A stretch of DNA of 64,000 bases from NCBI GenBank assembly GCA_023143455.1, contig JAGLHT010000005.1, positions 1-64,000 on the forward strand. Direction: 5' to 3'. Source of the stretch: Desulfobacterales bacterium. Lineage in GTDB: Bacteria > Desulfobacterota > Desulfobacteria > Desulfobacterales > Desulfobacteraceae. A program made the translations under genes and the position numbers. Under the pieces are notes generated by a model. The model ran no database searches. It had not been told where the DNA came from and saw only the letters and a program-made list of their open reading frames with translations. Below are positions 27,599 through 49,725 of this stretch, piece after piece (position 1 is the stretch's first letter; each line of letters begins with the position of its first letter).

Positions 27599-27934
27599 GG
27601 ACTGAGTAGTGATATCTACATATGGATTCTTCTTCTTACAAATATTCAGATTCGGACAAACACATATAGCAATTGGAAGATTCCTAAATTAAAAAGACGA
27701 GAAGATATCCAAAGTCAAAATGTTATTTTCCATAATCACCAAGGATTCATTTTAATATTTTCTGTATATGGACATAGGTTTTACTTTGTTATTAAAAAAT
27801 GTTAATTATTTATCATCGCTGGATGATTAATGATATCCTGAGAAAAGGGGTATCCTGCAAAGAGAGATTCTTAAAGGGAAACTCCATAAACGCGGAAAGC
27901 CATGAAGCAGTGAACCTGATTGGAGCCAAATGCC

Positions 27935-29080: not shown

Positions 29081-29086
29081 ATTGTT

Positions 29087-31612: not shown

Positions 31613-31620
31613 ACCATTTC

Positions 31621-31636
31621 TGCAACATATGTTGCA
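31621..31636. promoter_or_regulatory. Perfect palindrome, candidate activator (UAS) site
   Basis: TGCAACATATGTTGCA is a perfect 16-bp palindrome 95 bases upstream of the -24 element. Further TGCAAC-like half sites follow at 31637-31662. Distance and form fit an enhancer for a Fis-type sigma54 activator. Confidence 0.55.
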
Positions 31637-31730
31637 ACAAACGCTGCGAAACAATGCAACACTCCTTTTGCTGGTTTTATTTATTTTTATAACATCCTGT
31701 AATATTAAAACAATTTTATCAATTTTAATT

Positions 31731-31746
31731 ATGGCATATTTTCTGC
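31731..31746 (+). promoter_or_regulatory. Sigma54 (-24/-12) promoter of the Hdr cluster
   Basis: TGGCATATTTTCTGCA has GG and GC dinucleotides separated by exactly 10 bases, as in the TGGCAC-N5-TTGCA consensus. It lies about 75 bases before the receiver gene at 31819. Confidence 0.65.
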
Positions 31747-31818
31747 AACCACCCCTTATTAAAGGCAATAAAACCCTTTGTTTATTTAATTTATTTTAAG
31801 ACAAATAAGAGAGGTTAA

Positions 31819-32247
31819 TTGAAAAAAGCATCAGCTAAGCAGAAGATATTGGTTGTTGACGATGATCCAGACATGAGGATTTTCTTTGCAACAATTCTTA
31901 AGACAGGAGGATTTCAGCCAGTGGTTGCCAAAAATGGAACCGAAGGCTTAAAAAAAGTCAGATCACAAAAGCCAGTGTTCATAATTATTGATGTACCCAT
32001 GCCTGGGAACGGTGGGATGAAAATGTACAAGTGTTTAAAACAGGATAAAAATTTAAGCTGCATTCCGGTGATCATGGTATCCTCCATTGACAAACAGACC
32101 TTCACCAATTACCAGAAAACAAAAGGGATCAGGTTGGGCCAGGATATTACAGTTCCGGAAGCGTTCCTGGAAAAACCGCCTGAAGCGGCAGAGATACTTG
32201 ACCTGATAAAGGCTGCTCTGTCAAGGGGTATCAGTCCTAATGAATAA
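31819..32247 (+). CDS. Stand-alone response regulator receiver
   Basis: A 142-residue single-domain receiver. ILVVDDDPDMRIFFATIL gives the acidic pair, FIIIDVPMPGNGGMKMYK the phospho-Asp, IPVIMVSSID a serine in the switch position and AFLEKPPEA the conserved lysine. No output domain, so it probably serves as a phosphate shuttle or binds a partner. The start is TTG with AGAGAGG upstream. First gene after the sigma54 promoter and 67 bases before hdrC, so it should be co-expressed with the Hdr subunits. Confidence 0.9.
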   Translation: MKKASAKQKILVVDDDPDMRIFFATILKTGGFQPVVAKNGTEGLKKVRSQKPVFIIIDVPMPGNGGMKMYKCLKQDKNLSCIPVIMVSSIDKQTFTNYQKTKGIRLGQDITVPEAFLEKPPEAAEILDLIKAALSRGISPNE

Positions 32248-32314: not shown

Positions 32315-32860
32315 ATGGAAGATTTAAACAAAACACCAGGCCTTTTCAAAGACGTTCAAGAAATGGTTCAATCATGCATACAATGTGGAACCTGTTCAGG
32401 TTCATGCTTAGCAGCATCAGTCATGGAACACACTCCTCGCCATATATGGCGCTTGGTTCAGCTTGGCTGTAAAGAAGACGTGCTAAACAGCAAGAGCTTT
32501 ATTTATTGTGCTTCTTGCTATTATTGTACGCTTCGCTGCCCGCGAGGCCTACCACTGACAGAAGCCATGGCAAAGCTCAAAGAGATCTCTGCCAAAAGTA
32601 GCCAAAAAAAACACAAAAGCAGCATGGATTTTTATAAATACTTTGTAAAAAGTGTCTGCCGGCATGGTCGTGTCAACGAAGTGGAATTGATGACAAATTA
32701 TTTGATTTCGACAAAAAACCCCGTAACCTCTCTGAAGTATGCCCCCCTGGGAATGAAGCTGATGGGTAAGGGAAAGTTGTCCTTTGGGAATGCTTTAAAA
32801 GGGAACGGTGTATTGGATGTTTTATTTGCCAAAGTCAAAGAGATGGAGGACAGAACATGA
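32315..32860 (+). CDS. hdrC: Heterodisulfide reductase subunit C-like iron-sulfur protein
   Basis: A 181-residue protein with two [4Fe-4S] motifs typical of HdrC: CIQCGTCSGSC near residue 21 and CASCYYCTLRCP near residue 69. No membrane segment, so this is the soluble HdrC type. It would pass electrons between HdrA flavin/clusters and HdrB. Its ATGA stop/start overlap with hdrB shows translational coupling. Known Hdr enzymes of sulfate reducers are proposed to couple exergonic and endergonic electron transfers; the substrate here is not known. Confidence 0.93.
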   Translation: MEDLNKTPGLFKDVQEMVQSCIQCGTCSGSCLAASVMEHTPRHIWRLVQLGCKEDVLNSKSFIYCASCYYCTLRCPRGLPLTEAMAKLKEISAKSSQKKHKSSMDFYKYFVKSVCRHGRVNEVELMTNYLISTKNPVTSLKYAPLGMKLMGKGKLSFGNALKGNGVLDVLFAKVKEMEDRT

Positions 32861-33726
32861 GTTATCTTTATTATCCGGGTTGCTCACTTGAAGGAACTTC
32901 TCAAGAGTATAACATATCAACCCGTGCATTGTTTTCTTCCCTAGACATTTCTTTGAACGAAATACCTGAATGGACTTGCTGCGGCGCTAGCGCTGCGGAA
33001 TCTGTCAGCTATCTGCTGTCATTATCGTTGCCGGCTCGCGTGCTGGCACTCGCTGAAAAAATGGATGATTGCGATCAACTGCTGGTACCTTGCAGTGCTT
33101 GCTATCTCAATCTGAAAAAGGTTGAAGAGAAAGTAAAAAAGGACCCTGTCTTATTGGAAAATCTTAACACCATTTTAGAAGCAGAAAACCTCAGTTTGAA
33201 AAACAGCACCAAAGTAAAACATTTGCTGGAAGTATTATCCAAAGATGTCGGTCCGGATTCCATCCAAAAGAAAACTAAAAAATATTTGAACGGTCTCACC
33301 ATTGCTCCATATTATGGTTGTCAATGCCTCAGACCCTATCCTGTTTTTGATGATCCTGAAGCTCCCACCTCCATGGAACCGCTATTGAAAGCCGTCGGAG
33401 TGAAAGTTCATCAATGGAACATGGGGTCCAAATGTTGTGGAGCTTCGCAAATGGCTACTAAAAGTGACATCGCCGTCAAATATGTAGCAGACATTTTACG
33501 AGCCGCCAAAGGTGCCGATGCTATTGTGACGGTATGTCCAATGTGTCAAATGAACCTGGAAGCTTATCAAGAAAAGGTTTGCAGCACTGCCGGAGAAGAC
33601 CTGCACACTTCAATTTTATATTTACCTCAGCTGCTTGGAATTGCTCTTGGATTGTCTGCCAAGGAGCTTGGATTTGATTTTAATCTTGCGGTCAGCAAGG
33701 GCTTAAGACAAAAAATGGTGATCTAA
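32857..33726 (+). CDS. hdrB: Heterodisulfide reductase subunit B-like protein (two CCG domains)
   Basis: A 289-residue protein with two cysteine-rich CCG domains: YYPGCSLEGTSQEYN, TCCGASAAES and VPCSACYLNLKK in the first; APYYGCQCLRP, SKCCGASQMATKS and VCPMCQMNLEAY in the second. In HdrB these cysteines hold two noncubane [4Fe-4S] clusters that cleave a disulfide. Normal length. It overlaps hdrC by four bases and precedes hdrA by 51 bases. Confidence 0.95.
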   Translation: MSYLYYPGCSLEGTSQEYNISTRALFSSLDISLNEIPEWTCCGASAAESVSYLLSLSLPARVLALAEKMDDCDQLLVPCSACYLNLKKVEEKVKKDPVLLENLNTILEAENLSLKNSTKVKHLLEVLSKDVGPDSIQKKTKKYLNGLTIAPYYGCQCLRPYPVFDDPEAPTSMEPLLKAVGVKVHQWNMGSKCCGASQMATKSDIAVKYVADILRAAKGADAIVTVCPMCQMNLEAYQEKVCSTAGEDLHTSILYLPQLLGIALGLSAKELGFDFNLAVSKGLRQKMVI

Positions 33727-33777
33727 TTGAACACTTTACATGTTTTAGATAACAAAATTTTGACCAGGAGGTCTGAT

Positions 33778-36700
33778 ATGGATGAACGGATCGGGTTTTA
33801 CATTTGTCATTGCGGTATAAATATCGCTTACCGGGTACGGGTGCAGGAAGTGGCCGATTATATTGCTGCACTGCCCAACGTAGCCATTTCCCGTGATTAC
33901 TTGTTCATGTGCTCTGATCCAGGCCAGGAACTGATTGAAAAGGATATCAAGGAGTATAATCTTTCAAGGGTAGTTGTTGCTTCATGTTCTCCAAGGATGC
34001 ATGAAAAGACTTTCCGTTCAGCATGTCAGAGGGCTGGCCTTAACCCATACCGGGCTTTTCATATGGTAAGCGTCAGGGAACAGGTTTCCTGGGTAACCCT
34101 GGATGAAGACCAAGCTACTCAAAAAGCTAAAATACTGGCCTGCGCTGGTGTGCAGCGTGTGGTGCATCAGTATGGTCTTATCCCTGCAGTTTTTCCGGTT
34201 AACACCAATACACTGGTTGTGGGTGGTGGAATTGCAGGCATGCAGGCTTCCCTTGATATTGCAAAAGCCGGATTTAAGGCATACCTGGTTGAAAAACAGC
34301 CTTCCATTGGAGGGCACATGCTTCAATATGACAAAACTTTTCCTACACTTGACTGTGCAGCCTGTATTGGGACACCAAAGATGGTCTCTGTAGGCCAGGA
34401 ATCGAATATTGAGCTTCTCTCCTACAGTAAAGTAGAAGATGTCAGCGGGTTTATTGGAAATTTTCACGTAACCGTACGCAAAAAAGCCCGCTATGTGGAA
34501 AACAATTGCACCGGATGCGGGGAATGTGAAAAGGTCTGCCCGGTCAGCACACCGAATGAATGGGATGTAGGAACCAAACTGAGAAAGGCCATATACCGAC
34601 CTTTTCCCCAGGCTGTGCCCATAACATATTGTATTGAAAAGTATGACCGTGCCCCCTGCACTGAAACCTGCCCTGCTGGAACAAATGTGCAGGGTTATGT
34701 TGCTCTGGTTAAAGTTGGCAAATATCAGGAGGCAGTAAAGCTGATAATGGAGAAAATTCCTCTGCCCGGAACATTGGGCAGAGTATGCCCTGCCCCATGT
34801 GAAAAAGCATGCCGGAGAGCAGAGGTGGACACCCCGATCGCAATTCGTGAGCTTAAACGTTTTGCAGCAGACCATGTTGATTTTACAACTCTGGATCTGC
34901 CTGAAATTGAAGAAAGAGAGGAAAAAATTGCTATAGTAGGATCTGGGCCTGCAGGTCTGTCCGCAGCTTACTACCTTCGTTTAAAAGGATACAAAATCAC
35001 AATTTTTGAGGCTCTTGATGAACTTGGGGGGATGCTTAAGGTCGGAATCCCGGATTATCGGCTTCCTGCCGATGTTTTAACCAGAGAAATTGATTATATC
35101 ATAAGACATGGTATTAAAGTTAAAAAAGGTGCCTGCTTTGGAAAAGATTTCAATATTCAAGATCTTAAAAAACAAGGTTTTAAGGCCATATTTCTGGGCA
35201 TTGGTGCCCATAATTCAATACAGATGCAGATCCCTGGTGAAAAAAATACTAAAGGCATTATCGATGCTGTAACTTTTTTAAGAGATGTGAATCTGGGCAG
35301 CAGGGAAAAACCCGGCAACAAGATCATAGTAATTGGAGGTGGAAACGTTGCCATTGATGCAGCCCGCACAGCCAAACGCCTTGGCGCACAGAAAGTTACC
35401 ATTGTATACCGAAGGACCGAGCAGGAGATGCCAGCCTATAAAGAGGAAATCAAAGGAGCACTGGAAGAAAAAATAGATATTTCATATTTAACAGCTCCGG
35501 TTCAAATCATAAGTGAAAATCAAAAAGTATCAGGTTTTGAATGTATGAAAACCGAGCTGGGACCTGCAGATGCATCCGGGCGAAGAAGACCTGTACCAAT
35601 AGAGAATTCTGAATTCATTATTCCCTGTGACACCATTATACCGGCCATAGGTCAGAGCATTGACACGTCATGGTCAAAGGGTGAACCTGATTTTGCACTG
35701 AATCCAAATAATACTTTTGATGTCAATTCTGATACATTTCAAACAAGTATTCCAGATGTATTTGCAGCAGGCGATGCAGTAACAGGTCCTGCAACAGTTG
35801 TTGAAGCTATTGCCGCCGGCCACAAGGCAGTTGATTCTATTCATCGCTATATCAGCGGTGAAGAACTGGTTCAAACAAGGGAAGAAAAAATCGTACAAGA
35901 AGTTAAGAAAGATGGCTGGAAACCGATCCCGGAGAGTACAAAGGCAATTCCAAGAGTTTCTGCCAGGCACCTTGATCCGGTTAAGAGAGATGTAACATTT
36001 GATGAGGTTGATTCCAATTTTTCAGAAGAAGATGCAAAACTTGAAGCATCACGCTGTATTGATTGCGGCGGATGCTGTGAATGCAAACTTTGTGTAAGCG
36101 CATGTGAAGCCAAAGCCATCAATCATGAAATGGAAGATACCATTGAGATAATCGATGTGGGATCTATTATTGTTGCCACCGGGTTTGACCCTCTTGATCC
36201 TTCACCAATGTCCCAGTACGGGTATAATAAATATGCCAATGTTTTTACCAATTTTGAGTTTGAAAGGCTTTCAAATGCAACAGGTCCTACAGGCGGTAAG
36301 CTTTTAAAACGTGATCCTTTAGACCGTCTCAAATTTACAGATCCGCCAAAAAGTGTTGCAATTCTTCATTGCATAGGCAGTCGTGATATCAACTACCATG
36401 AATACTGCTCAAGAACATGCTGCATGTATGCACTTAAATATGCCCACCTGCTCAAGGATAAATGCGGTCATGATATTAAAATTTACAATTTTTATATTGA
36501 TATGCGCTGTTTTGGCAAAGGTTATGAAGAATTTTATCAGCGCGTTCAAAGCGAAGGTGTCTGCATGATTCGAGGCAAAGCTGCTGAAGTGGAAGAAAAA
36601 GACGGTATGCTCATCGTCAAAGCTGAAGACACTTTGTCCAACCGCATGCTGAATGTTTCTGTTGAAATGGTGATCCTCTGCACAGCCATGGAACCATGTC

Positions 36701-37158
36701 CAGATGTTAATGAGGTTGCAAGGACTTTTGGCATCAGCACAGGAGGGGATGGATTTTTTTTAGAAGAGCATCCTAAACTTGAACCGGTTTCTACAGCAAC
36801 AAGCGGGGTTTTTATTGCAGGAGCCTGTCAGGGTCCTAAGGACATTCCTGATACTGTTGCCCAGGCAAAGGGAGCAGCCTCTGAAGCCCTTTCCTTAAGC
36901 GCTTCGGGCAAAGTTGCAGTATCACCAATGATATCTTCCATTGATCCGGATGTCTGCATAGGATGTCAAATATGTATAGGGCTGTGCCCTTACTCTGCAA
37001 TTGAATTTAATGAAAGAAAAGCCATTAGTGAAGTAAATGAAGCTGTATGTAAAGGCTGTGGCAGTTGTGCTGCATACTGTCCAAGTGGCGCGGCAAAGGT
37101 GCGGCATTTTACAGATAAGCAGGTTTTTTCAGAAATAGAAGGCCTGCTGGCAGGCTAA
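33778..37158 (+). CDS. hdrA: HdrA fused with a GltD/NfnB-like NAD(P)H-binding module
   Basis: A 1126-residue flavoprotein. Residues 4-140 are the HdrA N-terminal domain (IGFYICHCGINIA), 145 on is an FAD Rossmann fold (TLVVGGGIAGMQASLDIAK) with TLDCAACIGTPKM, then a ferredoxin motif near 245 (CTGCGECEKVCPV). Residues about 281-690 are an inserted module like glutamate synthase small subunit/NfnB (APCTETCPAGTNVQGYV; GRVCPAPCEKACRR; KIAIVGSGPAGLSAAYYL; KIIVIGGGNVAIDAARTAK), giving an extra FAD and an NAD(P)H site. HdrA core resumes, with two C-terminal ferredoxin motifs near 1057 and 1092. The ATG at 33778 has AGGAGG; a TTG frame reaches 33727. Flavin-based electron bifurcation is expected by homology. 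Confidence 0.92.
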   Translation: MDERIGFYICHCGINIAYRVRVQEVADYIAALPNVAISRDYLFMCSDPGQELIEKDIKEYNLSRVVVASCSPRMHEKTFRSACQRAGLNPYRAFHMVSVREQVSWVTLDEDQATQKAKILACAGVQRVVHQYGLIPAVFPVNTNTLVVGGGIAGMQASLDIAKAGFKAYLVEKQPSIGGHMLQYDKTFPTLDCAACIGTPKMVSVGQESNIELLSYSKVEDVSGFIGNFHVTVRKKARYVENNCTGCGECEKVCPVSTPNEWDVGTKLRKAIYRPFPQAVPITYCIEKYDRAPCTETCPAGTNVQGYVALVKVGKYQEAVKLIMEKIPLPGTLGRVCPAPCEKACRRAEVDTPIAIRELKRFAADHVDFTTLDLPEIEEREEKIAIVGSGPAGLSAAYYLRLKGYKITIFEALDELGGMLKVGIPDYRLPADVLTREIDYIIRHGIKVKKGACFGKDFNIQDLKKQGFKAIFLGIGAHNSIQMQIPGEKNTKGIIDAVTFLRDVNLGSREKPGNKIIVIGGGNVAIDAARTAKRLGAQKVTIVYRRTEQEMPAYKEEIKGALEEKIDISYLTAPVQIISENQKVSGFECMKTELGPADASGRRRPVPIENSEFIIPCDTIIPAIGQSIDTSWSKGEPDFALNPNNTFDVNSDTFQTSIPDVFAAGDAVTGPATVVEAIAAGHKAVDSIHRYISGEELVQTREEKIVQEVKKDGWKPIPESTKAIPRVSARHLDPVKRDVTFDEVDSNFSEEDAKLEASRCIDCGGCCECKLCVSACEAKAINHEMEDTIEIIDVGSIIVATGFDPLDPSPMSQYGYNKYANVFTNFEFERLSNATGPTGGKLLKRDPLDRLKFTDPPKSVAILHCIGSRDINYHEYCSRTCCMYALKYAHLLKDKCGHDIKIYNFYIDMRCFGKGYEEFYQRVQSEGVCMIRGKAAEVEEKDGMLIVKAEDTLSNRMLNVSVEMVILCTAMEPCPDVNEVARTFGISTGGDGFFLEEHPKLEPVSTATSGVFIAGACQGPKDIPDTVAQAKGAASEALSLSASGKVAVSPMISSIDPDVCIGCQICIGLCPYSAIEFNERKAISEVNEAVCKGCGSCAAYCPSGAAKVRHFTDKQVFSEIEGLLAG

Positions 37159-37199: not shown

Positions 37200-37622
37200 A
37201 TGACGGAATTTGAACCAACTATTGTCGCATTCTTTTGTAACTGGTGTACTTACACAGCCTCTGATCTGGCAGGTACATCCCGTCTTTCATATCCGCCCAA
37301 TATAAAAATCATACGTATGATGTGCACTGGTATGGTTGATCCCAAATATGTGATAAAAGCCCTGCTGGAAGGCGCAGATGCAGTGCTGATAAGTGGCTGC
37401 CATCCGGGCGACTGCCATTATATAAATGGTAACTATAAAGCAAGGAGGCGGGTCAAACTTTTAAAGGAAATGTTAAAAAGGTTTGGACTTGAAGAAGAAA
37501 GACTCAGGCTGACATGGATTGGTGCCAGCGACGGACTTCAATTAGCTGAAACAATCAATACAATGGTTGATCAGGTCAAAAAACTTGGTCCCAGTGAAAT
37601 AAAATCAACAATGGTAATTTAA
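37200..37622 (+). CDS. mvhD: MvhD/FrhD-type iron-sulfur (2Fe-2S) subunit
   Basis: A 140-residue protein of the MvhD family: PTIVAFFCNWCTYTASDLAG, RMMCTGMVDPKYVIKALLEG and DAVLISGCHPGDCHYINGNY carry the conserved cysteines for a [2Fe-2S] cluster. It links an electron-input module to HdrA. AAGGGAG precedes the ATG. In methanogens the partner is a hydrogenase; here no hydrogenase is nearby and the next gene is FrhB/FdhB-like. Confidence 0.93.
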   Translation: MTEFEPTIVAFFCNWCTYTASDLAGTSRLSYPPNIKIIRMMCTGMVDPKYVIKALLEGADAVLISGCHPGDCHYINGNYKARRRVKLLKEMLKRFGLEEERLRLTWIGASDGLQLAETINTMVDQVKKLGPSEIKSTMVI

Positions 37623-37689: not shown

Positions 37690-38841
37690 ATGTCAACTTT
37701 TTCAAAGCTTGAAGTTAAGGACAAGGACATTGTCACATCTTTGCAGGGATTTTTTAAAACTCTGCTTGAGTCGAAAAAAATCGATGCATTTATGGTGCCC
37801 TGGCATCTTCCCATGAAAGAAGTGGTAATGCCGACATTGATAAGTGATGTTGAGCAACTTGATAAAGCAGATCCCCTTGCGCCGTCGTTTCCAATGAACG
37901 CCGCAAAAATAGCTTCAAGACTTACTAAAAAACCAGCGGGTCAGACCATTGCCCTGGTAATGAGATCCTGTGAAATCCGTGCTTTTATTGAACTAATAAA
38001 ACTAAAGCAGGGGTCCTTGGATAATACTGTATTGATAGGTATTGATTGTCTTGGTGCATTTGATAACAGGGATTATGCAAGTTTTGCCAAAAAAGAGGTT
38101 TCCACAGTGCGGTTCTGTGACAAAATACTGAAAGATAAATCTGAGAACATTGAAGGGCTTAATCTTGCAGCAGCCTGCAAGGTCTGTGAACATCCTGTTC
38201 CCGACAATGCAGATATTATTATTGGCCTTTATGGCATTGATTACCAGTCTGAACTGCTCCTAGAAGCACCCACTGTTAAGGGCGAAGAACTTTTACAAGC
38301 CTTAAATCTTCCAAAAACTTCAGAGTCAGCATCCCGCCAGCAGGCTATAAAGTCACTTATATCAGACCGTGAAGCCAAAAGGGATAAGATGTTTGAAGAA
38401 ACATCTCTTGCAACATCAAATATTGAAAAGCTGTCCGGCTACCTTGCTAGCTGTGTTAACTGCTATAACTGTAGGGTTGCCTGCCCAGTATGTTATTGCA
38501 GGGAGTGTGTCTTTGTCACAGATGTTTTTGATCATGATTCTTTTCAGTACCTTCAGTGGGCCAAGAAAAAAGGCAGGGTTAAAATGCCTACAGATACTGA
38601 TTTTTTTCATCTTACAAGGATGGCCCACATCAGTCTGGCATGCGTTGGCTGCGGTCAGTGTTCAAATGCCTGTCCCAATGACATACCCTTAACGGAACTT
38701 TTCAGGACTGTTTCACACCATACTCAGAAGGCTTTTGAATATGAAGCCGGAAAAAATATTGAAGAACCAATACCATTATCTGTTTTTAATGACAAAGAAT
38801 ATGAAGAAGTGGTTGGGATTAACAAGCAAAGTACAGAATAA
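37690..38841 (+). CDS. FrhB/FdhB-like iron-sulfur protein with C-terminal ferredoxin domain
   Basis: A 383-residue protein. The N-terminal two thirds resemble the beta subunit of F420-reducing hydrogenase/formate dehydrogenase (TIALVMRSCEIRAFIELIKL; VLIGIDCLGAFDNRDYA). The C-terminal third has two cysteine clusters, CVNCYNCRVACPVCYCREC near 255 and CVGCGQCSNACPNDIPLTEL near 320. It probably holds a flavin plus [4Fe-4S] clusters and passes electrons between a soluble carrier and MvhD/HdrA; the carrier is not known. GGAGG is upstream, and the HdrD-like gene follows 12 bases later. Confidence 0.8.
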   Translation: MSTFSKLEVKDKDIVTSLQGFFKTLLESKKIDAFMVPWHLPMKEVVMPTLISDVEQLDKADPLAPSFPMNAAKIASRLTKKPAGQTIALVMRSCEIRAFIELIKLKQGSLDNTVLIGIDCLGAFDNRDYASFAKKEVSTVRFCDKILKDKSENIEGLNLAAACKVCEHPVPDNADIIIGLYGIDYQSELLLEAPTVKGEELLQALNLPKTSESASRQQAIKSLISDREAKRDKMFEETSLATSNIEKLSGYLASCVNCYNCRVACPVCYCRECVFVTDVFDHDSFQYLQWAKKKGRVKMPTDTDFFHLTRMAHISLACVGCGQCSNACPNDIPLTELFRTVSHHTQKAFEYEAGKNIEEPIPLSVFNDKEYEEVVGINKQSTE

Positions 38842-38853
38842 CAGGAGTCAATC

Positions 38854-40173
38854 ATGAGCGAAACTGCCATTAAACTAAGAAAACGAGAAAAAACAAGTCT
38901 GTTTGATCAAGTCAAAGAGCTACTGCCTGATGGTGGGAATCTGAATCTCTGCCTTACGTGTGGTCTTTGCAGTTCCGGATGTCCGGCAACTGGGCTTGTA
39001 TCCATGGATCCCAGAAAAATGCTCAGAATGATAGCATTAGGATTGGATGAAGAAGTTCTTGCATCTGACTGGCCATGGATGTGCACAATGTGTCAAAGAT
39101 GCATATATGCCTGCCCCATGAAAATAGATATTCCCCAGTTGATTTATAATATAAGAGCCCAAAGACCCAGAGAAGAAAGACCAAAGGGAATATTGGGCTC
39201 GTGTGATATGGCCCTTAAAAATGATACCAACAGCGCCATGGGAACCAATGAAGAAGATTTTATTTTTGTTGTTGAAGATGTTTTAGAGCAATACCAGGAA
39301 GAACAGCCTGAATTTGCAGAAATGCAGGCTCCAATTGATAAAGAAGGTGCAGAGTTTTTTCTGAACCAGAACTCCCGTGAGCCTGTCACAGAACCTGACG
39401 AAATGGTTCCATTATGGAAGATTCTTCACCTTGCAGGTGTTGACTGGACCTATGGGAGCAAAGGCTGGGCAGGTGAAAACTACTGCATGTTTCTGGCAGA
39501 TGATGATGCCTGGAAACATGTGGTTCAGACCCAGACAGACCAGACTCACAAGCTCAAGTGCAAGACTTATCTGAATACTGAATGAGGCCATGTGACCTTT
39601 GCAGTCCGGGCCGGACTGAAAAAATTCAATATAGAGCATAACTTTGAGGTAAAAAATATTTATGAGTATTATGCAAAATGGATAAGGGAAGGCAAACTCA
39701 AACCTAATTCAGACTGGAACAAGGAGCTGGGTATAAAATTTACCTGCCAGGATCCCTGCCAGATTGTCAGAAAAAGCTATGGAGATGAAATAGCAAAGGA
39801 TTTTCGCTATGCAATAAAAGCAGTTGTGGGAGAGGAAAACTTTGTGGACATGTCTCCAAATTTTTCTAACAACTACTGCTGTGGAGGAGGCGGGGGATTC
39901 CTTCAGTCAGGATTCAAGGAAGAGCGTCTGGAATACGGCAGGATAAAGGACAGACAGATAAAAGAGACCAAGGCAGATTATGTGATTGCCGGATGCCATA
40001 ACTGCCATGCCCAGATACATGAGTTATCTAAACATTATGAAGGAAATTACCCTGTTATACATTTCTGGACTATCCTTGCACTGTCCCTGGGCGTATTAGG
40101 TCCCAATGAACGTACATATCTGGGAGATGATCTTATGGAGGTTAATGTGTTTCATCCTGAGACAGCAATGTAA
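38854..40173 (+). CDS. HdrD-like (HdrC-HdrB fusion) protein with in-frame UGA, predicted selenoprotein
   Basis: Read through TGA at 39583-39585 the frame is 439 residues. The N-terminus is HdrC-like with LCLTCGLCSSGCPA and WMCTMCQRCIYACPMKI. A linker leads to CCG-type motifs: TYLNTE-U-GHVTFAVRAG, FTCQDPCQIVRK, NNYCCGGGGGFLQSG and VIAGCHNCHAQIHEL. In HdrD/DsrK-like proteins the residue at U is normally the Cys of an ECGH motif. Sec is codon 244. Taken as two genes, the first would lack its catalytic domain and the second would start at a GTG without an RBS. A SECIS-like hairpin lies at 39602-39618. Predicted soluble; partner of the HdrA proteins on both sides. Confidence 0.85.
39602..39618 (+). 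promoter_or_regulatory. SECIS-like hairpin of the HdrD-like selenoprotein
   Basis: CAGTCCG, loop GGC, CGGACTG: a perfect 7-bp stem with G in the first loop positions. The loop starts 23 bases after the UGA, the same spacing as the second SECIS candidate at 25302-25318. Confidence 0.7.
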
Positions 40174-40218: not shown

Positions 40219-43200
40219 ATGATGAGAAAAAAAATAGGCACTGCCATGGTAGTTGGGGCTGGAATCAGCGGCATCAGGAGTGCCCTTGATCTTGCCGAGT
40301 TTGGCTACAGTGTTACCCTTGTTGATAAGGCACCAAATATCGGCGGTATTTTAAGCCAGCTGGATTACCAGTTTCCCAATGACAGATGCGGTATGTGCAA
40401 GATGCTTCCTCTGGTCAACCGGGATTCATCTTCCCAATATTGTCTTCGCAAAGGTCTGTTCCATGAAAATATCAATATAATGCTGGGGACTCGATTGACA
40501 AATATTGAAGGAGAACCAGGCAAGTTCAAGGTAATACTGAAGCAGAAGCCCTCATCAGTTGATCCTGATCTTTGTACTGGCTGTGGAGAATGTGCCAGAG
40601 TTTGTCCAGTTCTAGTGCCTGATTCTTTTAATATGGGGCTTTCTGAAAGGAAGGCCATTTATCTTCCTGTGCCACATAATATTCCCAATACATATACTAT
40701 AGATTTTTCAAGCTGCACCCGTTGCGGTGAATGTGTCAGCGCATGTCCTACAGGAGCAGTTAAGCTTCCTGAAGAAAAAAGGAAAAATTTTAATATCCTA
40801 GTTGTGGATGATGAACTTATTGTAAGGGATTCCTTAAAAGAATGGCTTGAAGATGAAGGGTTTTCAGTTGAAATGGCTGATTCAGGACAAACAGCCCTTG
40901 ATATGCTCAAGCAGAACACCTATCACCTCATGCTTACTGATATTAAAATGCCTGGAATGGATGGAGTAGAACTTTTAAAGGAAGCTAAAAAAGACCTCCC
41001 CGAGTTGCCTGTTGTAATGATGACCGCCTATGCAACTGTTGAGACCGCAATTGAGGCAATGAAACAAGGTGCTCTTGATTATCTTCTAAAACCTTTTGAT
41101 CCAGAAACTTTTACTCCAAAAGTTTTAGAGATATACCAGACCCTTGAAGTTGTACAGGAGATAGAACTAGGTGTAAATGCAATTATAGTAAGTACAGGCA
41201 CAGAGTATTTTGATCCTTTGCAGTCAAATAATACTTTTGGATATGGCAGATATCCTGATGTTGTAACCAGCAGGGAATTTGAAAGACTTTTAAGTGGCAC
41301 AGGACCTGAAAATGGTTTGCTGCAAAGGCAGTCTGATAAAAAGCCTTTGAAAAAAATCGCATGGTTTCAGTGTGTTGGTTCCAGAGATATACAGACAAAT
41401 GCAGATTTCTGCTCTTCAATCTGCTGTATGCATGCAATTAAAGAGGCAAGACTTGTTAAAGAAAAACTTGGGCATAATATTGAAACAACTATTTTTTATA
41501 TGGATATGAGGGCATTTGGAAAATCCTTTCATCAATATAAAAACCAGGCGCAGAACGAATATGACGTCTGTTTCAGCAGGAGCCGGGTGCATTCAGTAAC
41601 AGAGAATAAAGAACTTGGCGGCCTGATGGTTCAATACGTTGATCAGAAGGGAACCCGCAATGAAGAACAATTTGACATGGTCGTACTATCCATCGGTCAG
41701 AGACCATCTTCCGGCACAAAAGAGCTTGCCCGGATTACAGAACTTCCTTTAAATAAGTGGGGATTTTGCGAATCTGAACCTTTTTCAACCAGCTTATCGT
41801 CAAAAGAAGGTATTTTCTTTGGGGGTTCCTTTGCAGGACTAAAAGACATAAGTGAGTCAGTTATCGGGTCAAGCTCTGCTGCTTTGTCAGCATCCCGTTT
41901 TATACATTCAATCGGCGGAAGTCTGTCTTCTGAAACTGATGAAGAAATAGAGTTAAAAGATGTCTCCCGCCAGATGCCGAGTGTATTGATTGTTGTATGT
42001 ACTTGCGGAAAACCCCAGATAGAAGGTGTTGAACAGGAACAGCTAAAAACAAACCTTTTAAGAGATCCGGCAGTAAATGATATTGTCTTTATTGAAAATA
42101 CATGCACAGCCCTGGGGCTGTCAAATCTTAAAGAAGTATTGGAAAAAAGCAATGCAAACCGTATGCTTATAGGTGCCTGTCTGCCCCATGTTTATACCGG
42201 CAAAGTTAATCAACTTTGCAAGGGAACCGGGTTTCATCCTCAAGCTGTGAACGTTGTTGATATTTACAGCCAGGATGCTTTAAAGGCTAAAGATGAAGGC
42301 GGTCAATCCCTTGAATCAATTATCGAACAAAAGCTTAAAATGGGTTTTGCCCATCTCAAGCGAATGGACCCGCCATTGGCTCCCATTGCTTCATCAATAC
42401 AAAAAGCCTTGGTTGTAGGAGGCGGCATTGCCGGAATGACAGCATCACTTGCTGTTGCTGATCATGGGTTTAAAGTTGATTTAGTAGAATCCCAAGACCA
42501 ACTGGGAGGGAATCTATTTTGGCTCAAAAGTACAATTGAAGGAAATGATATAAAAGAGCTGTTTGAAAAAACAGTGAAGAAAATAGAGAATCATCCTTTG
42601 GTAAAAGTTCATACTCAGGCTGAAATAACCTGTTCATTTGGAAGCGTTGGCAATTTTCACACATCAGCCCACAGTAAAAAAGAGGACAAACCCCTATCCT
42701 TTGAGCATGGGGTCGCCATCCTTGCAACTGGCGGTAAGGAAGCTTTGACCACTTCTTATGGCTATGGAACCAGCAAGGCGATTGTTACCCAAAAAGAATT
42801 TGCATTGAACCTGGATGATGGATCAATTAATCCAGCCAGTCTTGAAAGTGTTGTAATGATCCAGTGTGTGGAGTCAAGAGAGCAGGACAAGAAGAATTAC
42901 TGCTCAAGGGTATGCTGTGCAACTGCCTTAAAAAACGCATTGCTTCTCAAAGAGAAAAACCCCCAAGTAGGCATATATGTTTTATATCGGGATATGATGA
43001 CAACAGGGTTTCTTGAATCCTATTATACACGTGCAAGAAAAGAAGATGTTATTTTTATTCAATATGATGTTGAAAATAAACCAGAAATCACAAAAGATGG
43101 TGAAACAATTAAAATAACGGCGTTTGAGCCCATACTTGGAAAAAATATTGAAATAAGTGCCGATCTGCTTATTCTTGCAACAGGACTGGCTCCTGATTTT

Positions 43201-43647
43201 TCTGATGCCATGGCTGGAAATTTTGGAGTCCGTAAAGATGAATTCGGATTTTTCCAGGAAGCAGAATCCAAATGGCGTCCTGTTGATTCTTTAAAAGAAG
43301 GCATTTTTTCCTGCGGAATATGTAATTCACCTCGAAATATCACAGAAAGTATTGCAACTGCAGAGGCTGCAGCCCAAAGGGCTTTGAGGATTCTTGGTGA
43401 TAATAAAATATTAGCTGGAAGCATTGTTGCACAGGTGCATCCAAGCCTTTGCAGCCTTTGTGAAAGATGCATTGAAGCCTGTCCATATGATGCCCGTTAT
43501 ATCCATCATGAGAATACCCATGTTGCTGTTAATCCCATCATGTGCCAGGGATGTGGTTCCTGTGCAGTTGTTTGTCCTAACAGTGCTTCAGCTTTAGCAG
43601 GTTTTATAGACCAGCAGTTATTTGATGTAATAGATTCAGCCTTTTGA
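40219..43647 (+). CDS. Double HdrA-like flavoprotein with an internal phospho-acceptor receiver domain
   Basis: An 1142-residue protein. Residues 8-60 are an FAD Rossmann fold (TAMVVGAGISGIRSALDLA). Ferredoxin motifs lie at 119-129 (CTGCGECARVC) and 166-176 (CTRCGECVSAC). Residues about 191-305 are a receiver domain: ILVVDDELIVRDSL (Asp197/198), LMLTDIKMPGMDG (Asp241), VVMMTAYA (Thr269) and LLKPF (Lys291), all key residues present. HdrA then resumes (FQCVGSRDI). From about 585 a second HdrA-like unit begins (VLIVVCTCGKPQIEG), with another Rossmann fold near 730 (ALVVGGGIAGMTASLAVAD) and C-terminal ferredoxins near 1075-1115. A cytoplasmic redox enzyme that could be switched by phosphorylation; the next gene encodes a kinase. 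Confidence 0.9.
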   Translation: MMRKKIGTAMVVGAGISGIRSALDLAEFGYSVTLVDKAPNIGGILSQLDYQFPNDRCGMCKMLPLVNRDSSSQYCLRKGLFHENINIMLGTRLTNIEGEPGKFKVILKQKPSSVDPDLCTGCGECARVCPVLVPDSFNMGLSERKAIYLPVPHNIPNTYTIDFSSCTRCGECVSACPTGAVKLPEEKRKNFNILVVDDELIVRDSLKEWLEDEGFSVEMADSGQTALDMLKQNTYHLMLTDIKMPGMDGVELLKEAKKDLPELPVVMMTAYATVETAIEAMKQGALDYLLKPFDPETFTPKVLEIYQTLEVVQEIELGVNAIIVSTGTEYFDPLQSNNTFGYGRYPDVVTSREFERLLSGTGPENGLLQRQSDKKPLKKIAWFQCVGSRDIQTNADFCSSICCMHAIKEARLVKEKLGHNIETTIFYMDMRAFGKSFHQYKNQAQNEYDVCFSRSRVHSVTENKELGGLMVQYVDQKGTRNEEQFDMVVLSIGQRPSSGTKELARITELPLNKWGFCESEPFSTSLSSKEGIFFGGSFAGLKDISESVIGSSSAALSASRFIHSIGGSLSSETDEEIELKDVSRQMPSVLIVVCTCGKPQIEGVEQEQLKTNLLRDPAVNDIVFIENTCTALGLSNLKEVLEKSNANRMLIGACLPHVYTGKVNQLCKGTGFHPQAVNVVDIYSQDALKAKDEGGQSLESIIEQKLKMGFAHLKRMDPPLAPIASSIQKALVVGGGIAGMTASLAVADHGFKVDLVESQDQLGGNLFWLKSTIEGNDIKELFEKTVKKIENHPLVKVHTQAEITCSFGSVGNFHTSAHSKKEDKPLSFEHGVAILATGGKEALTTSYGYGTSKAIVTQKEFALNLDDGSINPASLESVVMIQCVESREQDKKNYCSRVCCATALKNALLLKEKNPQVGIYVLYRDMMTTGFLESYYTRARKEDVIFIQYDVENKPEITKDGETIKITAFEPILGKNIEISADLLILATGLAPDFSDAMAGNFGVRKDEFGFFQEAESKWRPVDSLKEGIFSCGICNSPRNITESIATAEAAAQRALRILGDNKILAGSIVAQVHPSLCSLCERCIEACPYDARYIHHENTHVAVNPIMCQGCGSCAVVCPNSASALAGFIDQQLFDVIDSAF

Positions 43648-43691: not shown

Positions 43692-44834
43692 ATGGAAGCA
43701 ACCAAAAAAAAACTTATCCTGCTGGTGGATGATGAGCAGGATATCCGGGAAGTCCTTGCAATTGCCTTAACTGATATTGGTTATGATGTGCTGGAGGCTG
43801 CAAATGGAAAGCAGGCATTAAAAATTTTTAAGGAGGAATCCCCGACAATTGTCCTTACTGATATTAAAATGCCGGGCATTGATGGCATTGAAATACTGAA
43901 AAAAATAAAACAGAAGAATCCAGAAACTGAAGTAATTATGATTACAGGGCATGGAGATATTGATATTGCCATAAAAAGTCTGAAATACGAGGCAATTGAT
44001 TTTATTACCAAACCCATAAGCAGTGATGCTTTAGAGATTGCACTTAAAAGGGCAAATGAAAAAATAGTTACAAGAAACCAACTCAAACAATATACTGAAA
44101 ATTTGGAAGACCTTCTCAGGCAAAAATCAATGCTCAGGGATAACCTTTCATCTCTCGGAGTTATGATAGGCTCCATTTCCCATGGAATAAAAGGTCTTTT
44201 AACAAATCTTGACGGCGGTGTTTATCTTATGGAATCAGGTTTTGGTAAAAAAGATGAACAGCTCATTGATGAAGGTTTTGATATATTGAAACTTACCATT
44301 GATAGAATTAAAAAAATGATTTTTGACATTCTTTATTACTCCAAGGAAAGAGAGATAAAAATTAAAAAAATCAATTTACTAAAATTTGCAAGTGATATTG
44401 CAGATATTTTGGAACAAAAGGCTTTATCCCACGGCATAAAAATTGTTCGTGAGTTTGACAATGCGCCTTCTAAGTTTTTTGCAGATCCTGAACACATTCG
44501 TTCAGCCCTTATAAATATTCTCGATAATGCAGTTGACGCATGTATTGAGGACAAAGGGGAAAAAGATCACAAGATTATTTTTACATTAAAACAGGATGAA
44601 AAATATAATATTTTTGAGATACATGATAATGGCATAGGCATGGATCAAAAAACCAGGGAAAAAATCTTCAACCTTTTTTTCTCTTCCAAACATAACAAGG
44701 GCACAGGTTTTGGTCTGTTTATATCCAAAAACATTATCCAGCAGCATGGAGGTATTATTAATTTAAAATCTGCCAAAGGAAAAGGAACCTGTATACAGGT
44801 TAAACTTCCAATAACAGATTATGAAAACAGATAA
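43692..44834 (+). CDS. Hybrid response regulator-histidine kinase (REC-HisKA-like-HATPase)
   Basis: A 380-residue soluble protein. Residues 7-122 are a receiver (LILLVDDEQDIREVLAIALT; IVLTDIKMPGIDGIEILK; MITGHGD; TKPISSD). The dimerisation helix holds the phospho-His in IGSISHGIKGLLTNLDGG (near 161), followed by HATPase motifs ILDNAVDACIEDKG, HDNGIGMDQ and SSKHNKGTGFGLFISK. The gene follows the HdrA-receiver gene by 44 bases and is probably co-transcribed, making that receiver a candidate target. It overlaps the convergent membrane kinase by 16 bases. Confidence 0.93.
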   Translation: MEATKKKLILLVDDEQDIREVLAIALTDIGYDVLEAANGKQALKIFKEESPTIVLTDIKMPGIDGIEILKKIKQKNPETEVIMITGHGDIDIAIKSLKYEAIDFITKPISSDALEIALKRANEKIVTRNQLKQYTENLEDLLRQKSMLRDNLSSLGVMIGSISHGIKGLLTNLDGGVYLMESGFGKKDEQLIDEGFDILKLTIDRIKKMIFDILYYSKEREIKIKKINLLKFASDIADILEQKALSHGIKIVREFDNAPSKFFADPEHIRSALINILDNAVDACIEDKGEKDHKIIFTLKQDEKYNIFEIHDNGIGMDQKTREKIFNLFFSSKHNKGTGFGLFISKNIIQQHGGIINLKSAKGKGTCIQVKLPITDYENR

Positions 44835-47128
44835 TCGGTTTTTTTATTATTGGCAAAGGGAAATTGTATAATAAAGGTAGCACCACCGGTAACCTTATCA
44901 CACTCAACTTCTATGTTGCCCTTGCATTCTTTCATAATCCCATAACTGATTGAAAGTCCCAATCCAGTGCCTTTACCTACTTCCTTGGTTGTAAAAAAGG
45001 GTTCAAAAAGCTTATCTTTTATACCATCCGGAATCCCTAAACCAGTATCCCTGACCTTTACAATCACATGTCTGTCTTTAGAAAAAGTTTCTATGTATAT
45101 TTTTTCATTGTCAATCATAGAGTTTTGCTGCTCACTTTTTTCTTCGATGGCATCCCTTGCATTGACCAAAAGATTTATAAACACCTGTTCGATGCGGCTA
45201 GGGTCGGCTGTTATGGCAGGAATATCCTCTTGTATGCTCCAGACTACCTCGATACCTCTTACTTTTAGCTGCTGGCTGAAAATATCATGGGCACGCATGA
45301 GGATTTCATTAACATTGATATCTTCAAAGTTGATATCTGATTTTCGGGCAAAATGGCGCATATGTTCTATGATTTTTGAAGCACGGTCTACATTATTGTT
45401 GATTTTTACCAATAGTTTATGAAAAATTGATTCTTTGATTTTTTCTTTTTTATCAACCTTTTTTAAGATAAAGTCGCTTGCTGTTTTTATAACCGATAAA
45501 GGCTGGTTTAATTCGTGGGCAATGCCAGTGGACATCTCCCCTAAAGTTGCCATTTTCCCTGCCTGTATCAGTTCGCGTTCTGTTTCAAGACGTTTTGTGA
45601 TGTCACTTGTTGTTACAAGCAGTACTTTTTTATCATTATACTCTGAAGGTGAAATCCAGATATCAACATATATATTTTTCCCATCTTTAATTTTATGTTT
45701 TACCTGGTTGAGAGTTGATGATGATTTGACAAGATCAAACATTTTTCCTTTTTCTTCATTAATGAAAAAATTCTGGAATGACTGATTTAATATTTCATTT
45801 TTATCAAATCCATATACAGATTTGACACTCTGATTGCAGTCAAGCAGTTCCAAAGTTTCTTCGTTTAGAACAAATACAGGGTTTGGGATATTATTAAAGA
45901 TAGACTGGTATTTTTTTTCTGATGCTTCAAGTTTTTTCTCCAAATATTTTCTTGATGTAATATCAATGCTCATCTCCATGGCTGATATTACTTCACCCTT
46001 TACATTTCTTATGGGTGATGTAATAAATATCCAGTGATTCATTGTCCCGTCTTTACCGATCCCTGACTCTTCTCCATAATGAGACTTTCCATCTTTAAAT
46101 GTTTTTTCAACAGTACAATTGTCACATTTCCTGTTAAGTCCCTTATATGCCTGATAACAGTGGGCACCTGGTTTTGGCTGAAAGCTTTTTCCAAACTGCC
46201 GGTTATAACGCAAGAGTTTGTAATCTCTGTCCTGTACGCTTATCATACAAGGGGCATAATCAAAAAGGGTTCTGTATTCATTTCTCTGTGCATGCAGTTC
46301 TGTCTGCTGGATATGGATTTGATCTCCCATACTGTTTATTAAATCAGCAAGTTGTCCCAGTTCATCTTTCTGGTATATAGCAATTTTGGTTTCAAAATTA
46401 CCGCCTGCAATCTGAACTGTTCCTTCCATCAATTTCTTAATGGGAATATTGATAAATTTATAAACTAAGAAAAATATTATTGTGAAAATAATTATAAAAG
46501 CAAGTAAAGCAAGGCTAATAACTGCCTTTTTTGCATCCATGATCTCCTTGTCACGGGCTTCCAAGGAGACCACGACATCAAGTGTTCCCAAAATTTTTTT
46601 GTTTTTGGGATGGACATGGCAGTCTTCTGTTGAACATCCTTTTTCGTTGTAGATTGGGCTGATGATTCCAAGCTGGCGATATCCCTGGAGGGAATTGATT
46701 ATACGTGTTCTTTGGGAAAGTTCGATACGTTCAAGCGGTGGTTCTGATTTGTGGCATATATTGCAGGCTTCAGCTTTTATGTTTGTTTCTTTGTTTACCT
46801 CTGTTTCAATGTTTGAGAATTTTATTTCTCCGGCTTTGTTGTAAATATGAATTCTTTCTATTCCCCCCTGCTTTCCAATATTCTGTATAATCTGTGTAAT
46901 ATCATCCCGAGAATTCAGTGTCATTGCATAATGGGTTCCAAGCCTTATTGTTTCGGTCAATCTGTCAGAATCAGCAATAATATGGTTCATTAATTTTTCT
47001 TTTTGATAATTGATGTTGAAATAGGCCCAGGCTGAAATGATCACAAGCAGTGAAACACCAACAAAAATAATAAACTTGGAAACTATATTCATCCTGAAAA
47101 TATATTTTTGTTTTTTCATATCTTCCAA
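44819..47128 (-). CDS. Membrane histidine kinase with periplasmic c-type haem motifs
   Basis: A 769-residue sensor kinase. Membrane segments are about 17-38 and 202-223; between them a periplasmic domain carries CNICH (122-126) and CSTEDCH (165-171), consistent with covalent haem c. HAMP follows (224-275), then two PAS domains (about 290-400, with CYQAYKGLNRKCDNC, and 405-520), HisKA (GEMSTGIAHELNQPLSVI) and HATPase (NLLVNARDAIEE; DTGLGIP; GKGTGLGLSISYGIM). It could sense redox state or a gas via haem. The frame opens with TTG at 47128; the ATG at 47119 (MKKQKYIF) is the alternative, neither with an ideal RBS. It converges on the Hdr cluster. Confidence 0.92.
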   Translation of the reverse strand: MEDMKKQKYIFRMNIVSKFIIFVGVSLLVIISAWAYFNINYQKEKLMNHIIADSDRLTETIRLGTHYAMTLNSRDDITQIIQNIGKQGGIERIHIYNKAGEIKFSNIETEVNKETNIKAEACNICHKSEPPLERIELSQRTRIINSLQGYRQLGIISPIYNEKGCSTEDCHVHPKNKKILGTLDVVVSLEARDKEIMDAKKAVISLALLAFIIIFTIIFFLVYKFINIPIKKLMEGTVQIAGGNFETKIAIYQKDELGQLADLINSMGDQIHIQQTELHAQRNEYRTLFDYAPCMISVQDRDYKLLRYNRQFGKSFQPKPGAHCYQAYKGLNRKCDNCTVEKTFKDGKSHYGEESGIGKDGTMNHWIFITSPIRNVKGEVISAMEMSIDITSRKYLEKKLEASEKKYQSIFNNIPNPVFVLNEETLELLDCNQSVKSVYGFDKNEILNQSFQNFFINEEKGKMFDLVKSSSTLNQVKHKIKDGKNIYVDIWISPSEYNDKKVLLVTTSDITKRLETERELIQAGKMATLGEMSTGIAHELNQPLSVIKTASDFILKKVDKKEKIKESIFHKLLVKINNNVDRASKIIEHMRHFARKSDINFEDINVNEILMRAHDIFSQQLKVRGIEVVWSIQEDIPAITADPSRIEQVFINLLVNARDAIEEKSEQQNSMIDNEKIYIETFSKDRHVIVKVRDTGLGIPDGIKDKLFEPFFTTKEVGKGTGLGLSISYGIMKECKGNIEVECDKVTGGATFIIQFPFANNKKTDYLFS

Positions 47129-47713: not shown

Positions 47714-48277
47714 ATGAGAAAGGCTATGAAGAAATTTATCAAACCTGCTATTTTTATTGCCATTGGTGTCCTAATCGCTTTCCCTATTTTCAGCCTGACC
47801 TATTACACAATGGTAAGAACATCGACCCCTGCATTCTGTACTTCATGTCACGAAATCAGACCCGCATATGATAGCTGGAAAACATCTACCCACGTTAATA
47901 ATGCCCAGGGTTTTACTGCCGACTGTATGGACTGTCACCTACCTGCTCCCCAAGACACGTTCAACTTTTTTTATGCTAAAACAGCCCATGGTATTAAGGA
48001 TGTTTTTGCTCATTTTGTCGGCGGACCATATGACAGAGAATATAGCAGAAATCATGCCTATGAAACTTTTAAAAATGCCCAGTGTCAGAAATGCCATCGT
48101 AATATTTTACACATTCCTGATAAACGAGGAGCAATGCTGGCGCACCGAACAGTTATATATCCCAAAAAAGGATATGAAAAAAAATGCGTTGACTGTCATA
48201 AAAATCTCGTCCATGTTGATAGGGATGTTTATCAATATAAAGGAAGACAGCAACCATACCGAGGATTAGGTATATGA
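47714..48277 (+). CDS. NapC/NirT/NrfH-type tetrahaem cytochrome c (quinol dehydrogenase)
   Basis: A 187-residue membrane-anchored cytochrome. Residues 12-33 are the anchor (AIFIAIGVLIAFPIFSLTYY). Four CxxCH motifs follow: CTSCH, CMDCH, CQKCH and CVDCH. This is the NrfH/NapC layout, oxidising menaquinol and passing electrons to a periplasmic partner. The next gene, 56 bases on, encodes an octahaem cytochrome, its likely partner. RBS AAGGA is upstream. Confidence 0.92.
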   Translation: MRKAMKKFIKPAIFIAIGVLIAFPIFSLTYYTMVRTSTPAFCTSCHEIRPAYDSWKTSTHVNNAQGFTADCMDCHLPAPQDTFNFFYAKTAHGIKDVFAHFVGGPYDREYSRNHAYETFKNAQCQKCHRNILHIPDKRGAMLAHRTVIYPKKGYEKKCVDCHKNLVHVDRDVYQYKGRQQPYRGLGI

Positions 48278-48333
48278 CTATGAATAGCTGAAAATAAAGA
48301 AAATATTCAAATAACACAAACAGGGAGTTAACC

Positions 48334-49725
48334 ATGAAAAAAAATATTTTTATTTTGTTCATTATTGGATTGCTATCTATTATTACGGTGTCTTTAGCAA
48401 TTAGTCAGGATGTTAAAATGAATTTTCCCAAATCAAAAGAGTTTAGGATTGAAAGGTCTATGTCTCCCCAGGCCATGGCATGTATAGAATGCCATAAAAA
48501 AGAACACCCGGGAATATTCTCAGATTGGGCAGATAGTCGTCATGCCAGTGCAAATATAACTTGTTATGACTGCCATGTTGCTGAACCCCATGATGCTGAT
48601 GTGAGTCAATCTCATTATAAAGAATATGAGTCAAATGATACAAAATATGGCCAGAAAAAAAATATGGTACCAGTCTCTGCTGTAGTAACTCCTAAAGATT
48701 GTTCCAGATGCCACCCAGATGAGGCAATACAATATAGTAAAAGCAAGCATGCCAACACTCTTGAAATTATTTGGAAAATTGATCCTTGGTTGAACAATGG
48801 TATGAATAGTGATTTTGAAAGGGTTAATGGTTGCTATCACTGCCATGGAACTATATTAAAAATGGAAAATAAAGAACTCACTCCTGAAACCTGGCCTAAT
48901 GTCGGTGTGGGTAGAGTAAACATGGATGGCAGCAAGGGCAGTTGTACAAGCTGCCATACACGTCATCGATTCTCGATTATGGAAGCACGAAAACCCCAGG
49001 CCTGTGGTCAGTGCCATCTAGGTCCGGATCATCCTCAAATTGAAATCTTCACTGAGTCAAAGCACGGAGGTATATACGATGCCTTTGGTGATGAATATAA
49101 CTGGAAAGCAGCTCCTGGAACATGGACGCCCGGTGTTGATTTTAGAGGCCCTACATGTGCTTCCTGTCATATGTCAGGTGCAGGAACAGTGATGACTTCC
49201 CACGACGTTACTGAACGCCTATCCTGGGAACTTCAGGCCCCTTTAACAATAAGACCTGAAGACTTTAAACCGTTCCCCTCCAAAACCAACTGGAAAGAAG
49301 AAAGACAAAAAATGCAGGAAGTTTGTAAGCAATGCCATGGAAAAAAATGGATTGAGGCTCATTACAGTCAGATGGATAAGACCATAGAAGAATATAATGA
49401 AGTATATTTTAAACCAGCAAAAGCAAAGTTAGATGAACTTTATAGTAAAGGACTTCTTGATAAAACCAGATTTTTTGATGAGCAGCTTGAAGTGGAATAT
49501 TACGAACTATGGCATCATGAAGGTCGTCGAGCTAGGATGGGAGCTGCAATGATGGCACCAGACTATTCATGGTGGCATGGATTTTATGAATTAAAAAAAC
49601 GATATGTTAAATTCATGGAAGAGGCCAACCATCTTATCAAAACTGGAGAGAAGGCTTATGTGGCAAAAGATTTCCCGAATTCTACCGGAAATAAGACAAA
49701 GCCTCCCGAATTATTTAAAAAATAA
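48334..49725 (+). CDS. Octahaem cytochrome c of the hydroxylamine-oxidoreductase-like family
   Basis: A 463-residue secreted protein with signal peptide (KKNIFILFIIGLLSIITVSL). Eight CxxCH motifs are visible: CIECH, CYDCH, CSRCH, CYHCH, CTSCH, CGQCH, CASCH and CKQCH. Their spacing, the HGGIYDAFGDEYNWKAAPGT block and the C-terminal helical region with APDYSWWHGFYELKKR fit the HAO family. Paired with an NrfH-type quinol dehydrogenase it more probably works reductively (nitrite, NO or hydroxylamine to ammonium) than as an ammonia-oxidiser enzyme; whether the cross-linking tyrosine of true HAO is present cannot be settled by eye. Periplasmic. Confidence 0.85.
   Translation: MKKNIFILFIIGLLSIITVSLAISQDVKMNFPKSKEFRIERSMSPQAMACIECHKKEHPGIFSDWADSRHASANITCYDCHVAEPHDADVSQSHYKEYESNDTKYGQKKNMVPVSAVVTPKDCSRCHPDEAIQYSKSKHANTLEIIWKIDPWLNNGMNSDFERVNGCYHCHGTILKMENKELTPETWPNVGVGRVNMDGSKGSCTSCHTRHRFSIMEARKPQACGQCHLGPDHPQIEIFTESKHGGIYDAFGDEYNWKAAPGTWTPGVDFRGPTCASCHMSGAGTVMTSHDVTERLSWELQAPLTIRPEDFKPFPSKTNWKEERQKMQEVCKQCHGKKWIEAHYSQMDKTIEEYNEVYFKPAKAKLDELYSKGLLDKTRFFDEQLEVEYYELWHHEGRRARMGAAMMAPDYSWWHGFYELKKRYVKFMEEANHLIKTGEKAYVAKDFPNSTGNKTKPPELFKK

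Follow-up and report, generated by a model that had tools for sequence, protein, structure and literature searches.

A receiver domain with an intact phospho-acceptor inserted in a double HdrA flavoprotein of Desulfobacterales, and its linkage to histidine kinases

The window, by which we mean the whole 64,000-nucleotide stretch of Desulfobacterales DNA analysed here, carries a gene for a 1142-residue flavoprotein, HdrA(REC), in which two HdrA units share one chain and a receiver domain (REC) lies within the first. Genes for Hdr-type subunits precede it and two histidine kinase genes follow it. The features, in window coordinates, are:

32315..33726, +, HdrC and HdrB genes
33727..37158, +, HdrL, an HdrA with a GltD-type insertion (type III)
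37200..37622, +, MvhD-like [2Fe-2S] subunit
37690..38841, +, FrhB/FdhB-like subunit
38854..40173, +, HdrD-like (TmcB/HmcF-like) protein with an in-frame TGA at 39583-39585, probably selenocysteine
40219..43647, +, HdrA(REC), 1142-aa flavoprotein of type II (double HdrA) carrying the receiver
40237..40548, +, aa 7-110, FAD-binding N-terminal part of unit 1 (aligned with 5ODC chain A; AlphaFold2 model)
40549..40779, +, unit 1 inserted ferredoxin domain, aa 111-187, with Cys119-129 and Cys166-176
40786..41154, +, receiver domain (REC), aa 190-312 (Pfam, residues, orthologs, Spo0F match)
40939-40941, +, phospho-acceptor Asp241 of REC
41155..41988, +, remainder of the unit 1 thioredoxin-reductase-like domain, aa 313-590, with E355 and K408
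41989..43644, +, unit 2, aa 591-1142: HdrA N-terminal domain, second FAD domain, C-terminal ferredoxin
43692..44834, +, candidate phosphodonor of 380 aa, a REC-histidine kinase (REC and HATPase)
44819..47128, -, membrane PAS histidine kinase with a periplasmic CxxCH / Cx3-4CH sensor

The frame at 40219-43647 (+) is open for 1142 codons without a stop or frame break. Pfam finds in its product an intact Response_reg domain (PF00072) at aa 193-299 (E 2e-32) together with Fe-S motifs and FAD/NAD domains, and the receiver has the fold, the acidic pair (Asp197 and Asp198), the phospho-acceptor Asp241, the Thr/Ser position (Thr269) and the Lys (Lys291) of a two-component receiver, all at the positions that the original prediction had given. 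The same prediction called the domain CheY-like, a label that we do not keep, since REC is nearer to FixJ/NtrC-type receivers than to CheY. REC comes after the CxxCxxCxxxC motif (Cys166-176) and before 'EIELGVNAIIVSTG'; in solved HdrA the second cluster motif runs straight into the next strand, and this is where REC sits in the window protein. With REC excised and 5ODC as reference, aa 8-183 and about 312 onward form one continuous HdrA unit, in agreement with the predicted insertion between the second ferredoxin motif and the remainder of unit 1 of a double HdrA. Residues 591-1142 make up another HdrA unit, N-terminal domain included, and the chain thus contains the two thioredoxin-reductase-type FAD domains that define type II HdrA. 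The NCBIfam model HdrA2 (NF040770) scores 648 bits over four stretches, under its curated cut-off of 1100 bits.

Of 194 genomes sampled from the window's order, about 74 gave a REC-containing HdrA, mostly 54-68% identical, to a junction query (aa 110-400) applied with a strict threshold, and the same protein is also found in families outside the order (395-genome phylum sample). The window's genome is fragmented and 79% complete, and an assembly artefact or frame error could in principle have fused two genes. However, the junction is repeated at similar identity in about 73 other genomes, including the single-contig assemblies G172 and G115, and we therefore regard chance or frame error as excluded, with a negligible probability left to it: the receiver belongs to one open frame and is not a separate gene. 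An apparent 1541-aa version (L050) has an HdrA frame that extends upstream into GC-rich sequence without HdrA similarity, and therefore no further fusion is claimed. When unit 2 was used as query, a gap in the identities separated orthologs (at least 42%), which are REC-containing proteins, contig-edge fragments aside, from REC-less HdrAs, which are different paralogs at about 40% identity or lower. Apart from copies cut by contig ends, we saw no REC-less ortholog in the sampled genomes.

The 39 orthologs that we aligned show no variation at the five catalytic positions of REC or at any of the eight ferredoxin cysteines. No other domain is as well conserved as REC, whose mean pairwise identity is 0.72; other segments have 0.66, 0.56, 0.37 and 0.53, and the linker after REC has 0.34. 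Because REC is so conserved, a survey of named organisms mostly matched generic receivers, the named fusions being L091-L093 only.

In solved HdrA, E356 and K409 lie near the flavin, and the pair was proposed to mark bifurcating HdrA (PMC12054007). Their equivalents in unit 1, E355 and K408, are invariant in 39/39 orthologs, and bifurcation or confurcation probably takes place in unit 1. At the Glu position of unit 2 the window protein has Ala862, and 34 of the 39 have Glu; for residue 905 of unit 2 the alignment included partial, gapped sequences, and we therefore quote invariance for unit 1 only. An AlphaFold2 model of aa 1-590, run with a small alignment, has a pLDDT of 81 and a pTM of 0.77, REC blocks being mostly above 90, and the full chain gives a pLDDT of 81 and a pTM of 0.78. 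Since the modelled HdrA part matches 8RVU (Z 38 over 410 residues), the modelled REC matches Spo0F (Z 22) and unit 1 of the full-length model matches 8RWN (target-normalised TM 0.92), neither fold appears to be disturbed by the insertion; both are kept in the models. In solved HdrA complexes the inserted ferredoxin domain is the binding site of FmdF/MvhB and the anticipated exit of low-potential electrons (PMC12350162).

At most orthologous loci the gene order is HdrL(GltD)-MvhD-FrhB-like-HdrA(REC)-HdrC-HdrB, with kinases after or flanking these genes, and the window differs in having HdrC-HdrB placed before HdrL. HdrB is present at 27 of 32 fusion loci and MvhD at 30 of 32, compared with 0 of 20 other HdrA loci for both. 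Our preferred explanation makes HdrA(REC) the central flavoprotein of an electron-transfer complex, HdrL-MvhD-FrhB-like-HdrA-HdrC-HdrB, in the cytoplasm of sulfate reducers. Upstream at 27920-32247 (+) lies a signalling block comprising a REC-kinase, a REC-PAS-sigma54-type regulator and a stand-alone receiver, and relatives of these genes recur at many HdrA(REC) loci.

The gene directly after HdrA(REC) encodes a REC-histidine kinase (REC and HATPase), as predicted; its orthologs show an H-box-like SHGIKGLL motif that is also present in the window kinase. The two kinase genes converge and share 16 bases at their 3' ends (44819-44834). Mere proximity of a kinase was rejected as proof, because 14 of 20 control HdrA loci also have at least one, and we therefore relied on orthologous kinases and on the excess of kinases. 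Orthologs of the 43692-type REC-kinase occur at 15 of 32 fusion loci and those of the c-heme-type PAS kinase (44819 type) at 22 of 32, versus 0 of 20 control loci in each case; the kinase more often conserved is thus the convergent one at 44819-47128 (-) and not the REC-kinase. Fusion loci have 2.0 kinases per locus versus 1.0 at control loci (p=1.6e-4, not corrected for phylogeny). Taken together with the conservation of REC, these counts uphold the earlier claim of an intact phospho-acceptor in a bifurcating-type HdrA: it is strongly conserved and genetically tied to histidine kinases.

Across nine orthologs the sensor of the 44819 kinase has an invariant CxxCH (9/9), a second Cx3-4CH and a mean column identity of 72%. 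All nine sensor members match the Mcp40H-20 sensor family PF21563 (best E 4.6e-7), the window copy scoring 23.0 bits against a cut-off of 27, and comparison with 3b42 gives an E of only 0.85. We refer to the sensor as c-heme-type, its heme binding being putative. The Geobacter chemoreceptor sensors GSU0582 and GSU0935 bind c-type heme (PMC3460858), and a periplasmic c-heme Cache sensor family includes NO binders (preprint PMC12889525). A kinase with the c-heme-type sensor is found in 62 of 74 fusion genomes versus 31 of 120 others (Fisher 1.5e-15, not corrected for phylogeny), and in 43 of the 74 it lies no more than 15 kb from the fusion, many contigs being short. The 12 fusion genomes without it include incomplete ones. 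Adjoining the sensor kinase gene in the window, at 47714-49725 (+), are genes for an NrfH-like cytochrome and then a multiheme c-type cytochrome, a possible source of a periplasmic signal.

We lean, at somewhat better than an even chance, towards the view that phosphorylation controls HdrA(REC) at its low-potential electron exit, a view in which we infer the phosphotransfer, the choice of kinase and the effect on electron flow. A functional receiver would border the C-terminal end of the inserted ferredoxin domain, which serves as docking site and expected exit. Asp241 would be phosphorylated by a system of histidine kinases (in many genomes, the membrane c-heme-type sensor kinase plus the REC-kinase), altering the REC surface beside the exit, and this surface would decide whether ferredoxin or a partner subunit docks. 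Were docking gated in this manner, electron bifurcation would be controlled post-translationally by the periplasmic redox or gas state. Receivers often work through phosphorylation-dependent dimerisation, and a double HdrA may replace the HdrA homodimer, so that added contacts could matter; phosphorylation might then govern assembly, dimerisation or localisation of the Hdr complex instead of the ferredoxin exit. That REC is inserted precisely at the ferredoxin domain speaks against this reading, although our findings are compatible with either, and we judge it fairly unlikely.

Control at the electron exit can be set against a second order of the phylum (families f112, f173 and f175), where the operon is much alike and this HdrA likewise carries a REC-like insert. 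There the phospho-site is degenerate in 15 of 15 loci (among L073-L075 and L195-L221), with signatures such as DEGTK, DAGAK, DPDAH, TPDAK and HQDAT versus DDDTK in the window's order. Where the frame was correct, the proteins checked retain both E355 and K408. Residues were read from the actual loci, leaving out L197 and L199 (wrong frame). Of the 19 genomes of this order, 10 gave no match to the c-heme-type sensor kinase, and the other nine never have it near hdrA; adjacency is therefore 0 of 19 versus 43 of 74 in the window's order (Fisher 1.1e-6). Other, unrelated kinases lie near some of the sister-order loci, and the operon there also has a USP (universal-stress-type) gene without REC. 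An active phospho-site and a linked c-heme-type kinase thus go together, and the contrast supports a phosphorylation role in the window's order.

The sister order is at the same time an argument for REC acting chiefly in structure or docking, for instance as a permanent clamp on a partner subunit, with phosphorylation irrelevant to catalysis, since the domain is held at the same place with a destroyed active site. Receivers also function as protein-binding modules. Against such a purely structural use are the invariance of the five catalytic residues in 39/39 orthologs and the orthologous kinases linked to the gene in the window's order, and we hold it to be unlikely. Nevertheless, because the domain is kept without its phospho-site, phosphorylation cannot be its sole role, and the receiver probably has a phosphorylation-independent one as well.

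USP-REC-USP proteins are encoded at some fusion loci (L046:14706-16019, L047:10836-12152 and L080-L086), the same receiver module thereby appearing in two unrelated scaffolds at one locus. Their receiver shares about 54-71% identity with the HdrA one. A tree of 92 receivers, built on a short alignment and with several long branches, places the HdrA and USP receivers in one group (87/84), the USP receivers nested within, and pairs the two receivers of the L047 locus (88/91). The linker and first helix 'RDSLKEWL' are shared, which suggests that both receivers have the same partner kinase. These proteins and the REC-kinase hint at a receiver network on one kinase system, and with the sigma-54-type regulator encoded nearby (29087-31612) they would also fit signalling in the reverse direction: the redox state of the enzyme would expose or hide REC as a phosphate sink or partner, informing the kinase and a transcription factor. 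A sink, however, need not sit inside the bifurcating unit, and we find this reading improbable.

Returning to phosphorylation control at the exit, its most extended form is one in which a phosphorelay starts at a periplasmic c-heme redox or gas sensor kinase and ends directly on a bifurcating flavoenzyme, whose ferredoxin branch it switches. The switch would be conserved across the window's order and missing from the sister order, which retains the domain. This is a tentative proposal to which we give somewhat less than an even chance. If it is true, a membrane sensor may directly switch an energy-conserving enzyme by phosphorylation. HdrA(REC) may also account for the way in which sulfate reducers adjust low-potential electron flow in the cytoplasm to the surroundings beyond the membrane.

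Several known systems share parts of this architecture. Type II HdrA, the double thioredoxin-reductase-domain form described in archaea (PMC12054007), likewise has two HdrA cores per chain and the bifurcation-linked Glu/Lys pair in unit 1, but no receiver is described there, and HdrA(REC) is bacterial with REC inserted in unit 1. HdrA with a GltD insertion is already known as HdrL (PMC2702500) or type III (PMC12054007) and also bears a foreign domain around its inserted ferredoxin domain; in HdrL an NAD(P)H-type redox module precedes the second cluster motif, whereas REC is a signalling receiver after it, and HdrL is a separate gene of HdrA(REC)'s own operon. The HdrA of HdrABC-MvhD/Elp/Fdh complexes (5ODC, 8RVU, 7BKB) has the unit 1 fold and cluster motifs in common with HdrA(REC) (Z about 38 over 410 aa), and unlike it has a single HdrA unit per chain and no receiver.

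Response regulators with enzymatic outputs, including a REC-thioredoxin reductase, are a recognised category (PMC5847659). They share with HdrA(REC) a receiver on a metabolic enzyme, in one case a flavoprotein of the same superfamily; these fusions are described as phyletically narrow, whereas the REC studied here is part of a bifurcating-type enzyme with several subunits, occurs throughout an order and has a pseudo-receiver form in another. Since such fusions are recognised, the general mode of control, which the original prediction had taken as not known, is known, and it is the HdrA case that is new: we found no description of a receiver or response regulator in HdrA in the open literature that we searched. 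A widespread bifurcating-type enzyme with an intact phospho-acceptor at the predicted ferredoxin exit makes post-translational control testable, and the related order's natural group without the phospho-site adds a comparison for bifurcation control. HdrA-REC is of high interest because direct control of electron bifurcation thereby becomes testable.

Finally, the HdrD-like gene before HdrA(REC) (38854-40173, +) has its TGA in the context YLNTE-TGA-GHVTF, with a perfect 7-bp hairpin just downstream, and the TGA recurs at the same position in L044, L045, L076 and L091. A search for SelB in the window's genome gave only sub-cut-off or contig-edge matches, and the selenocysteine reading therefore rests on the conserved TGA; the gene probably encodes a selenoprotein. 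At G000:C88:48132-48680 (L006) and G000:C15:22753-23229 (L008), the matches to other HdrA paralogs of this genome run through one in-frame TGA, which suggests further selenocysteine HdrAs.
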